From the NCBI GenBank assembly GCA_024281175.1, contig JAMJTW010000009.1:1-58939 (forward strand): a DNA stretch of 58,939 nucleotides, written 5' to 3'. The position numbers and the translations under genes are program-made. Positions 2,416 to 5,242 of this stretch are shown here, in pieces; position 1 is the first letter of the stretch; each line of letters begins with the position of its first letter. The DNA comes from Candidatus Thiovulum imperiosus. Lineage in GTDB: Bacteria; Campylobacterota; Campylobacteria; Campylobacterales; Thiovulaceae. Under the pieces are notes generated by a model that saw nothing but the letters and a program-made list of their open reading frames with translations, was not told where the DNA came from and ran no database searches.

Positions 2416-3234
2416 TTAAAACAGCTCTTTTAAAACTTCTTCTTTCCAGCAAAGGTGATAAACTGTCTTTTCAGAACTTACAGATTTGTTTTGAACAAAA
2501 TCTGAAAAATCTTTCCCTTTTTCCGTAGCTTTCCAAACTTTTCCCTGTTTTTCTTGAAAACCATTCTCTTCTAAAAGCAAATTCATTTTTCGAGGATTTG
2601 GTTTGTCATTTTTTGTAGAAACCGATAGTTTCACTTCATCTGAAAACTCTCCAGCTCTTACAATTTCACAAAGATTTGTTACGGTTATAAAGTTTTCAGG
2701 AGTAGAAACACCTCTCTTTTCAGAAATTTCGAGGAAATCGACTCCAGTCTCTTTTTTTACTGCTCGATTTGTTGTGATTGCAAGTTCTTCAGCTCTTGTA
2801 ATTCCAAGTTCTCGAAATACTCTCTGAAAAATACCAAACTCCTTTTCAGAAATTTCTAAAAGCTCTGCTCTTTCTCTTAAGTTTGCTAAAGAGTTTTTAG
2901 AAATAGAGTAACTTCCTGTTTGTCTGATAGATGGTAGAACTTCTTCCATAATCCATTCTTCAATTTTTTGTGCTTCTGGAAGTCGAGATTTAATTATTAG
3001 TCGCCAAACATCACCCTCTGGAATAAGTTTTGTTTGTAGGTCAAGGGGTGGTAAAACACCACCCCTTATTAGATTACTGATTTTATCGGCTTTTTTACAA
3101 TGTTGTTTGATTGCATTGATAGTATCTTTGTAACCTAAAAGAGTTGCTATATCTTTAGCGACAAACCACTCTTTGTGATTAATAATAACTATTCTAATGT
3201 TTGAGTCGTTGAAATTTTTTGATAAAATGTACAT
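2416..3234 (-). CDS. BRO-N domain phage antirepressor-like protein
   Basis: Residues 1-100 form a BRO-N domain, the DNA-binding module of prophage antirepressors: IRIVIINHKEWFVAKDIATLLGY, then GDVWRLIIKSRLPEAQKIEEW and EEVLPSIRQTGSY. The C-terminal part (LRERAELLEIS onward) is shared with the protein at 4231-4911. An upstream start at 3303 would add 23 residues, but the ATG at 3234 gives the usual BRO-N start. It lies just downstream of the HTH gene at 3316-3555 on the same strand, probably co-transcribed. The DNA target is unknown. The DEV codons here use GAA, unlike the core genes of the window. Confidence 0.75.
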   Translation of the reverse strand: MYILSKNFNDSNIRIVIINHKEWFVAKDIATLLGYKDTINAIKQHCKKADKISNLIRGGVLPPLDLQTKLIPEGDVWRLIIKSRLPEAQKIEEWIMEEVLPSIRQTGSYSISKNSLANLRERAELLEISEKEFGIFQRVFRELGITRAEELAITTNRAVKKETGVDFLEISEKRGVSTPENFITVTNLCEIVRAGEFSDEVKLSVSTKNDKPNPRKMNLLLEENGFQEKQGKVWKATEKGKDFSDFVQNKSVSSEKTVYHLCWKEEVLKELF

Positions 3235-3315
3235 TGAAATTTCTTTAAATTTAGGAATTGATATTAAGAAGAGATGGGTTTGTAAGGTTCTTCTCTTCTT
3301 CATAAAAGAAGAATA

Positions 3316-3555
3316 CTAGATTTTAACTCTATTTGTCAAGTTGTTTGATGATATTAAATCTATAATTTTGTAATACTTACTTTGGTCTATCAGAGCTTCT
3401 AATAGAACTTTACTGTGTTTTTCAATTTTACCCGTATTCCATACTGATAAAGTTCTTGGATTTACTCCTATGTATTCTGCCAACTCTTTTTGTGTAATTC
3501 CCAATTCTCGGCAAGTCTTTTTTACTAAACTCTCTTCTTTTTCTACACTCTCCAC
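3316..3555 (-). CDS. Small helix-turn-helix (XRE-type) regulator
   Basis: A 79-residue protein with one HTH motif at about residues 17-40 (ELGITQKELAEYIGVNPRTLSVW), of the phage Cro/CI type. It lies just upstream of the BRO-N antirepressor gene, the usual repressor and antirepressor pairing of phage-derived modules. No toxin partner is visible. I infer that it is a DNA-binding repressor of this small accessory unit. Confidence 0.7.
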   Translation of the reverse strand: MESVEKEESLVKKTCRELGITQKELAEYIGVNPRTLSVWNTGKIEKHSKVLLEALIDQSKYYKIIDLISSNNLTNRVKI

Positions 3556-3702
3556 AAAAATCCTTTTTTGAAATTTTACAAAAGTTATCTTCTTGAAGAT
3601 TTCTCAATCGCTATGCTCATATCAAAAACAAAGTTTCACTAAATGACAAAAATGATTGTGGAAAATGCTTGGAAAAAAAGAATAGGAATAAGTTTGCTCG
3701 GT

Positions 3703-3866
3703 ATTTCAATCCATAAATGGAAAATGCTAACGGGAAAACCTCTAAAACTTCACGACCATCAATATAAATTTCAATCCATAAATGGAAAATGCTGACAAGT
3801 GGCGTAAAACTTCTTAGAGTTTTAGATGCTGAAACAAATTTCAATCCATAAATGGAAAATGCTAAC
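3703..3866 (-). CRISPR. Mini CRISPR array: three repeats, two spacers
   Basis: Three 29-nt repeats at 3703-3731, 3768-3796 (one mismatch, GCTGAC for GCTAAC) and 3838-3866 enclose spacers of 36 and 41 nt. On the minus strand each repeat ends in ATTGAAAT, as in type I/III repeats, so the leader should lie at higher coordinates, where an AT-rich stretch (3867-4030) follows. A shorter word TGGAAAATGCT at 3659-3669 may be a decayed further repeat. No cas genes are in the window. The uneven spacer lengths and low copy number leave some doubt. Confidence 0.68.
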
Positions 3867-4263
3867 CCCGAAACTTTCGCTATTCTTGAGTTTTCTATTT
3901 TCTCAAAAACCACGATATTTTGGTATCGCTTAAAGATTTTGTCGTAACCTCATCGGCTTTTTCAAAATCTCTCTGAAAACATGGCGAAAGTATAGGAGAA
4001 ATCGTCTTAGAAAGAGCTTAGTTCATTTTTTGAGGGTGACCAAATAGGCTTTGCCTCTCTTGTCATTTCGAAATGAGCGAAGCGATTGAGAAATCTTGGA
4101 AACCTATCGTTTTAATCGAAGTAATATAAAAGATTTCTCACCCGAAAGGGTTCGAAATGACATATGAGTTGTTAAAGCGTAAAAATACTCTATTTAGTCA
4201 GCCCTCTTTTTAACGCCCCTTAAAATTTTCTTAAAACAGCTCTTTTAAAACTTCTTCTTTCCA
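3838..4263. repeat. Direct repeat copy B
   Basis: This is the partner of 2023-2448. It starts with the third repeat of the mini CRISPR array, continues through the leader-like DNA and the palindromic element, and ends inside the 3' end of the regulator gene 4231-4911. Only scattered substitutions separate the copies, so the duplication is recent or maintained by gene conversion. It fills the gene-free stretch 3867-4230. Confidence 0.9.
4032..4206. mobile_element. MITE-like palindromic element, copy 2
   Basis: This 175-bp element has the same length and near-identical sequence as copy 1 at 2217-2391, because it lies within the larger duplicated segment. Its terminal inverted repeats are GAGGGTGACCAAATAG and the complement-type CTATTTAGTCAGCCCTC. 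It does not count as an independent transposition event. Confidence 0.7.
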
Positions 4264-4911
4264 ACAGAGATGATAGACCGTTTTTTCAGAACTTACAGAT
4301 TTATTTTGAACAAAATCTGAAAACTCTCCAGTTCTTACAGTTTCACAAAGTTCCGTAACAGTTATAAAGTTTTCAAGTGTGGAAACTCCTCTCTTTTCTG
4401 AAATCTCTAGGAAATCAACTTCAGTCTCTTTTTTCACTGCTCGATTACAAGTTATAGCTAACTCTTCAGGTCTTGTAATTCCAAGTCGAAAGAAAACATC
4501 TTCAAAAATTTTATACTCTTGTCTTGAAATTTCTAAAAGTTTGGCTCTCTCTTCCAACTTTTTAAGATTTGGAAAAGAACTATTTTGAAGCAAATTTCTC
4601 ATTTTGAAAAATTCTGTTACAAGGCGAACTTTAAACTTCTTGACAACTTCATTATTTCTGAGGAAAGTTAAAAGAAGAGTTGTTTGAGGCTCATTTAAGT
4701 AGTAAGTTTTCTCTTCATTAACCCGATTTTTCGCATTTTTTATAGCGACGATTTTAAATCGCACCATACCAAACTCTTCTAATTCAGCAAGATTTCTGGT
4801 GATTAAATCCAAAACAGATTTCTCTTTGTTGTTCGTTTGCTCTGCGATGACTCTATGGGAAACTAAAAGTTCTCCCTCTATGTTTTCAACTAAGTTTATA
4901 GCTTGTTTCAT
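4231..4911 (-). CDS. Rha-like phage regulatory protein with shared antirepressor C-terminus
   Basis: The N-terminal 110 residues resemble the Rha phage-regulator family (VSHRVIAEQTNNKEKSVLDL, then EFGMVRFKI, TYYLNEPQTTLLLTFLRN and FKVRLVTEFFKM). The C-terminal part is homologous to the BRO-N protein at 2416-3234, but lacks a 46-residue piece; an in-frame 138-bp deletion joins two copies of TCTGAAAA. The two proteins are therefore chimeras with different heads on one tail. The function of the common tail is unknown. Its promoter presumably lies between 4912 and 5000. Confidence 0.65.
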   Translation of the reverse strand: MKQAINLVENIEGELLVSHRVIAEQTNNKEKSVLDLITRNLAELEEFGMVRFKIVAIKNAKNRVNEEKTYYLNEPQTTLLLTFLRNNEVVKKFKVRLVTEFFKMRNLLQNSSFPNLKKLEERAKLLEISRQEYKIFEDVFFRLGITRPEELAITCNRAVKKETEVDFLEISEKRGVSTLENFITVTELCETVRTGEFSDFVQNKSVSSEKTVYHLCWKEEVLKELF

Positions 4912-4970
4912 TTAAATATGGTAAAAATAAATTTGGTGGAAATTCTCTTTTTAGAGAGCTGAAACAAAAG

Positions 4971-5070
4971 TTACCAAGTTTTATTCACAAGCTCTCCGAA
5001 TTCACCTTGATAAGACTTCCCGCAGGAAGCCTCTAGCTTGTGAAAAGGCACTTGGTAAAGCCTTATCAAG
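4971..5070. ncRNA. Compact structured element with interleaved inverted repeats (possible RNA pseudoknot)
   Basis: Four pairings fit in 100 bases: TTACCAAG 4971-4978 with CTTGGTAA 5051-5058; TTCACAAGCT 4984-4993 with AGCTTGTGAA 5035-5044; CTTCC 5016-5020 with GGAAG 5025-5029; and CTTGATAAG 5006-5014 with CTTATCAAG 5062-5070. The first three nest as a long hairpin, and the fourth crosses them, which would make a pseudoknot. All stems are perfect. It lies in the gene-free 4912-5242 stretch upstream of the Rha-like gene. Whether it is transcribed, and from which strand, cannot be told. Confidence 0.45.
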
Positions 5071-5125
5071 ACAAATTCAAAATAGAAACAAAATTTCCAA
5101 AAAGGATTTTATCACAAAAAATAGA

Positions 5126-5240
5126 CTTTTGCCCCTCTTGTCATTTAGTGAAACTTCGTTTTCGACATGAACGAAGTGATTGAGAAATCTTAGAAACTTG
5201 AAAAAGATTTCTCACCCTAAAGGGGTCGAAATGACATATT
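5126..5240. mobile_element. Degenerate MITE-like palindromic element
   Basis: It holds the inner arms of the palindromic family (CTTGTCATT..., GAACGAAGTGATTGAGAAATC, and AAGATTTCTCACCC...GTCGAAATGACA) and a right end ATTGGTCAC, but no clear left terminal repeat. It ends at the stop codon of mutS7, so it could act as the transcription terminator of that operon on the minus strand. Confidence 0.5.
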
Positions 5241-5242
5241 GG

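Follow-up and report, generated by a model that had tools for sequence, protein, structure and literature searches.

The window, by which we mean the whole 58,939-nucleotide stretch of Candidatus Thiovulum imperiosus DNA analysed here, carries on its minus strand an open reading frame of 226 amino acids (4231–4911) for a Rha-domain phage regulator of the antirepressor type (Pfam PF09669, E 7.9e-14). The adjoining stretch, 4912–5242, contains no plausible genes, as an earlier note on this DNA had observed, and within it lies the element considered here (4971–5070). Folded as the plus strand, the element forms nested stems of 9 bp (4971–4979 with 5050–5058), 10 bp (4984–4993 with 5035–5044) and 5 bp (5016–5020 with 5025–5029), together with a crossing stem of 9 bp (5006–5014 with 5062–5070); all four pairings described in the note are present, the outer stem being of 9 bp and not, as it had counted, 8. 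The nested fold is more stable than that of dinucleotide shuffles on both strands (z -3.2 for plus and z -4.1 for minus).

The surroundings are rich in repeats. A 31-nt repeat (ATTTCAATCCATAAATGGAAAATGCTAAC) occurs four times (2021–2051, 3701–3731, 3766–3796 and 3836–3866), three of these being spaced 65–70 nt apart like a short CRISPR array, and four more copies stand near the ends of contigs C8 and C24. A dispersed palindromic repeat of ~100 bp (TTTCGAAATGAGCGAAGCGATTGAGAAATCTT ... AAGATTTCTCACCCGAAAGGG) is found three times (2251–2350, 4066–4165 and 5160–5239), one of them directly beyond the promoter side of the element. There is also a 300-bp duplication of 98% identity (2021–2320 and 3836–4135), the two copies of which stand downstream of a Bro-N open reading frame (2416–3303) and of the Rha open reading frame; since these two reading frames also have related 3' ends, the sequences suggest domain shuffling between antirepressor genes.

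As judged from the sequences, the functional strand of the element is the window's minus strand, because its wobbles are G-U pairs there, the hairpin loop of most copies in the genome reads UUCG, and the intact copies described below all read towards an antirepressor ATG. In this gene-sense reading, G-U pairs outnumber A-C mismatches by 17 to 2, and therefore we regard the element as an RNA and not as single-stranded DNA. Read in the minus direction, stem P1 joins a 5' arm (TTACCAAGT, 5050–5058), invariant in 13 copies apart from a compensated 1-bp indel, to a 3' arm (ACTTGGTAA, 4971–4979); stem P2 joins a 5' arm that is hypervariable between copies (5035–5044) to a covarying 3' arm (4984–4993); and the 5-bp hairpin P3 (5016–5029) has the loop UGCG in the window copy and UUCG in most copies of the genome. 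A promoter-like extended -10 box, TGTGATAAAAT (5106–5116, minus strand), would start a transcript near 5099, and by inspection the intact copies, whichever of their three genomes they belong to, are directly preceded on the 5' side by a TGNTAAAAT-like box. The element would then be the structured part of a ~190-nt 5' leader on the minus strand before a phage-type antirepressor gene, here the Rha gene that it presumably regulates. None of the 13 leaders has a Shine–Dalgarno-like site, which is weak evidence since the same crude test finds one in just 11 of 30 long open reading frames of the window, and no icd-like open reading frame was seen in this main set of leaders.

The note had proposed looking for second copies, and a search of the genome with 181 bases from the window finds seven further places; in all, there are eight copies in the window genome (Thiovulaceae, Campylobacterota), of which seven are intact and one is decayed. 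With the seven intact ones as its basis, a covariance model matches these eight places and three places in each of two other Thiovulaceae genomes, Candidatus Thiovulum karukerense and Ca. Thiovulum stygium, which were named by a DNA pattern scan of named genomes; model searches across 399 genomes of the order gave matches in these three genomes and no other. The 13 intact copies (seven, three and three) are each followed, ~50–60 nt downstream on the same strand, by the start of an open reading frame, which encodes an AntA antirepressor or, in the window, Rha. In the window genome, the element precedes every AntA gene whose domain match is complete (five in all). It also precedes the Rha gene and an N-terminal AntA reading frame of contig C10; a sixth AntA match is a fragment. 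One AntA gene of Ca. T. stygium (L058) stands without the element, and a fourth AntA gene of Ca. T. karukerense (L059) lies at a contig edge with target block b, defined below, still visible. The decayed copy, directly upstream of rpsL (L022 1501–1614; G000:C10:49342–49455), retains the crossing helix and the J segment and has lost the target and the P1/P2 pairing. In the two neighbourhoods read in detail, the genes around the copies are chromosomal. Viral contigs scanned for the DNA pattern gave no match, and the matches of a GTDB pattern scan outside Thiovulum (Pseudoalteromonas, Prevotella and others) were set aside as chance, the best having E 0.13 with model R2. Near antirepressor loci we also observe small related HTH proteins of the XRE type (LVKKTCRELGITQKELAE...; window 3316–3555, L009 15662–15934 and L028 177–458), which recur in the window genome and in Ca. 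T. stygium and could be the repressors on which the antirepressors act.

The core of the crossing helix (5062–5070 with 5006–5014) is paired in all 13 copies (117 of 117 cells) and has compensatory changes at three of its nine pairs, whereas control alignments slid by 1–3 columns are just 33–60% paired. On the minus strand of the window copy, the helix continues through G-U pairs to 21 contiguous pairs (5062–5082 with 4994–5014), and the same outward extension gives 14–21 contiguous pairs across copies. The 3' strand of the core (CTTATCAAG, 5006–5014) covaries, and the outer part of the 5' strand (GAATTTGTC, within 5062–5082) resembles target block b. The linker between the 5' strand and P1 is 2 nt; rough distances permit the crossing helix to coexist with P1 and P2, and with steric clash considered, the structures may either coexist or alternate. 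In P2, 93% of the cells are paired, 56 cells have changes on both sides, and none of 1000 shuffles does as well in pairing or in covariation. In other words, the compensatory changes that the note had proposed to seek are present in both the crossing stem and P2. The P2 arms have a mean likeness of 62% between copies of the window genome, as against 87–95% for other parts of the leader, and the same trend is seen in Ca. T. karukerense and Ca. T. stygium. Our guess is that this hypervariability reflects avoidance of cross-pairing, or of recombination, between copies.

Between the 3' strand of the crossing helix and the 3' arm of P2 lies the 18-nt segment J (GGTGAATTCGGAGAGCTT, 4989–5006, minus strand), which consists of b' followed by a', overlaps the P2 arm by 5 nt and is antisense to the leader beyond P1. 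There it pairs in two blocks, a (AGCTCTCT, 4953–4960) and b (GAATTTCCACC, 4935–4945), with 7–9 unpaired target bases between them, and it does so in 13 of 13 copies. By column, 189 of 189 J–target cells are paired, and five columns have compensatory change between lineages, which amounts to few independent events because copies within one genome are closely related. In every one of the 13 leaders, the J–target energy is no higher than the 4% tail of the shuffles. J and target are common to the copies of one genome. In the window genome and in Ca. T. karukerense, J finds its best partner in the target of its own genome, and the J of Ca. T. stygium pairs about equally well with its own target and with that of Ca. 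T. karukerense. Block b ends ~23 nt before an ATG that has no Shine–Dalgarno-like site. Since the crossing helix extends to 14–21 pairs, b' has two possible partners, the upstream strand and the downstream target, and can take just one of them at a time. Of the roles that the note had entertained, that of a small or antisense RNA, pseudoknotted, is the one that covariation and the conserved complementarity to the downstream leader support.

The closest parallel is found in phages P1 and P7, whose C4 antisense RNA and its a1/b1 targets are the Rfam families RF01695 and RF03163. In phage P1, the order is a1/b1, c4 (77 nt), a2, b2, icd and ant1, and the Rfam fold of C4 comprises a two-part stem, a UUCG hairpin, a second hairpin and an unpaired a'. 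Both C4 and our element lie in an antirepressor leader in the same sense orientation; both have a long two-part stem (here P1 and P2) around a UUCG-type hairpin (here P3), an unpaired antisense segment (a' in C4, J here) immediately before the 3' arm of that stem, and two-block complementarity to the stretch of the same leader that directly follows (a2 and b2 in C4). Upstream, where C4 has a1/b1, a b1-like site makes up the outer portion of our crossing helix; no a1-like site was seen, and RF03163 has no match in the window. The second hairpin of C4, with b' in its loop, is replaced here by the 3' strand of the crossing helix, and b' and a' are contiguous in one segment; there is no icd open reading frame, and block b ends ~23 nt before the ATG, whereas b2 of phage P1 is near the ribosome-binding site; and the gene that follows is AntA or Rha, while Ant1 of phage P1 matches KilAC.

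The C4 model, which scores c4 of phage P1 at 68.8 bits as a positive control, has no match in the window, none on the element even at E<=10, and nothing above the cut-off in five Thiovulaceae genomes. At gathering score, Rfam finds just 5S rRNA and RNase P RNA in the window and no family on the element; the matches listed for the element at E<=10 are at chance level (e.g. EGFOA, 17.5 bits against a cut-off of 37.7). Going by these sequence comparisons, we would not place the element in the C4 family, because of the model score, the second hairpin and the arrangement of icd and the ribosome-binding site; the working resemblance to C4 stands. Among other small RNAs, sar of phage P22 is a separate transcript between ant and arc and a simple hairpin, as opposed to the pseudoknotted leader here. 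It likewise is a small RNA against an antirepressor mRNA, as the J of our element is complementary to an antirepressor leader; sar pairs with the ant mRNA and hinders translation initiation (PMC12197685). C4 RNA has been reported from Proteobacteria and their phages (PMC2864571), and the C4-derived Group 1 sRNA family of Acinetobacter baumannii has many C4-like copies in one bacterial chromosome (PMC5320573). That family is multicopy, as the element is here, but it matches the C4 model and varies in a', whereas here J is conserved within a genome and P2 varies.

An independent case comes from a congeneric genome (G001), in which the model gives a marginal match of 26 bits at a sequence unrelated to the main set. 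In this copy we recognise P1, GCC, P2, a crossing helix of 21 bp and a J complementary to the leader downstream of it, although the model that found it contained neither the crossing helix nor the J–target pairing. Its J–target duplex reaches -22.5 kcal/mol, the null lying at -6.7 (sd 2.2), its descriptor score is 46 where the best of 20 shuffled loci reaches 25, and an AntA gene lies ~240 nt further on. Read by eye, the target (L060, gene-sense ~1160–1240) overlaps an ATG that opens a reading frame of 15 codons, which might play the part that icd plays in phage P1. Weak R2 matches in G001 and in a further genome, G004 (L082–L084), have descriptor scores of 24–29 and are unconvincing. At 21 AntA genes from other genera of the order, a scan of the upstream DNA for the architecture gave no result that clearly exceeded shuffles, and Rfam recognised no C4 there. 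In viral contigs, the genes of AntA-related proteins lack a leader of this kind, and at one viral-contig locus a classic C4 follows the AntA gene.

What, then, does the element do? One could imagine a purely cis-acting leader switch, in which the upstream strand and the target of a single mRNA compete for J, no RNA acts in trans, and the outcome is perhaps set by a protein, ribosomes or a ligand. Each copy does lie within the leader of the gene that it presumably controls, the two pairings of J are mutually exclusive, and the window genome has no orphan target sites elsewhere with up to 3 mismatches; however, the bipartite antisense layout is that of c4 of phage P1, which acts in trans, the sharing of J and target among copies of one genome makes trans action available, and no conserved core resembling a ligand pocket was recognised. 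We regard such a switch as possible and rather unlikely.

The other suggestions of the earlier note fare less well. That the element is the folded end of a mobile element, a single-stranded-DNA structure or repeat end for a transposase or similar, would suit its multicopy, dispersed occurrence and the dispersed palindromic repeats nearby, but the copies keep one orientation and a near-constant distance to antirepressor ATGs, and they have a G-U bias and UUCG loops; no transposase open reading frame was recognised beside the copies inspected, and the J–target complementarity would be left unexplained, so that we hold this origin to be very improbable. An RNA antitoxin paired with a downstream toxin is an idea to which we give hardly any credence: a repeated small structured RNA does lie directly upstream of a short open reading frame, but these reading frames encode the phage antirepressors Rha or AntA, and Pfam assigns them to no toxin family.

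We favour the interpretation, which we consider probable, that the element represents a new C4-like lineage of antisense RNAs that control chromosomal antirepressors through leader pairing of the kind known from C4 of phages P1 and P7. P1 and P2 would surround P3 together with one of the two strands of the crossing helix and present J (b'–a'). J would then pair, at blocks a and b, with the part of the leader shortly before the antirepressor start codon; the most likely outcome is that less antirepressor is translated. In C4, the b' loop partly covers the ribosome-binding site and specificity comes from a' (PMC5320573); RNase P processes C4 at the foot (5' end) of its stem (PMC5320573), and an RNA of our lineage freed in a comparable way of its 5' strand would expose J and could act in trans. 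Because copies of one genome have J and target in common, they could silence each other or an incoming relative. A more specific version, in which the pseudoknot gates J, the 5' strand holding it until removed, and several chromosomal antirepressors with diversified P2 stems and a common J and target form a cross-silencing network, is speculative and, in our estimation, doubtful.

If such a cross-silencing network did exist, it would quiet resident antirepressors, and antirepressors brought in by invading relatives could be silenced as well. The specific features are the competition of the pseudoknot for J and the always-paired, hypervariable stem. The logic of C4 appears here with another fold in a family of Campylobacterota, the Thiovulaceae, in which the Rfam models do not find it. 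This suggests that antisense control of antirepressors either has more than one origin or diverged beyond recognition, and such RNAs are therefore probably under-counted.
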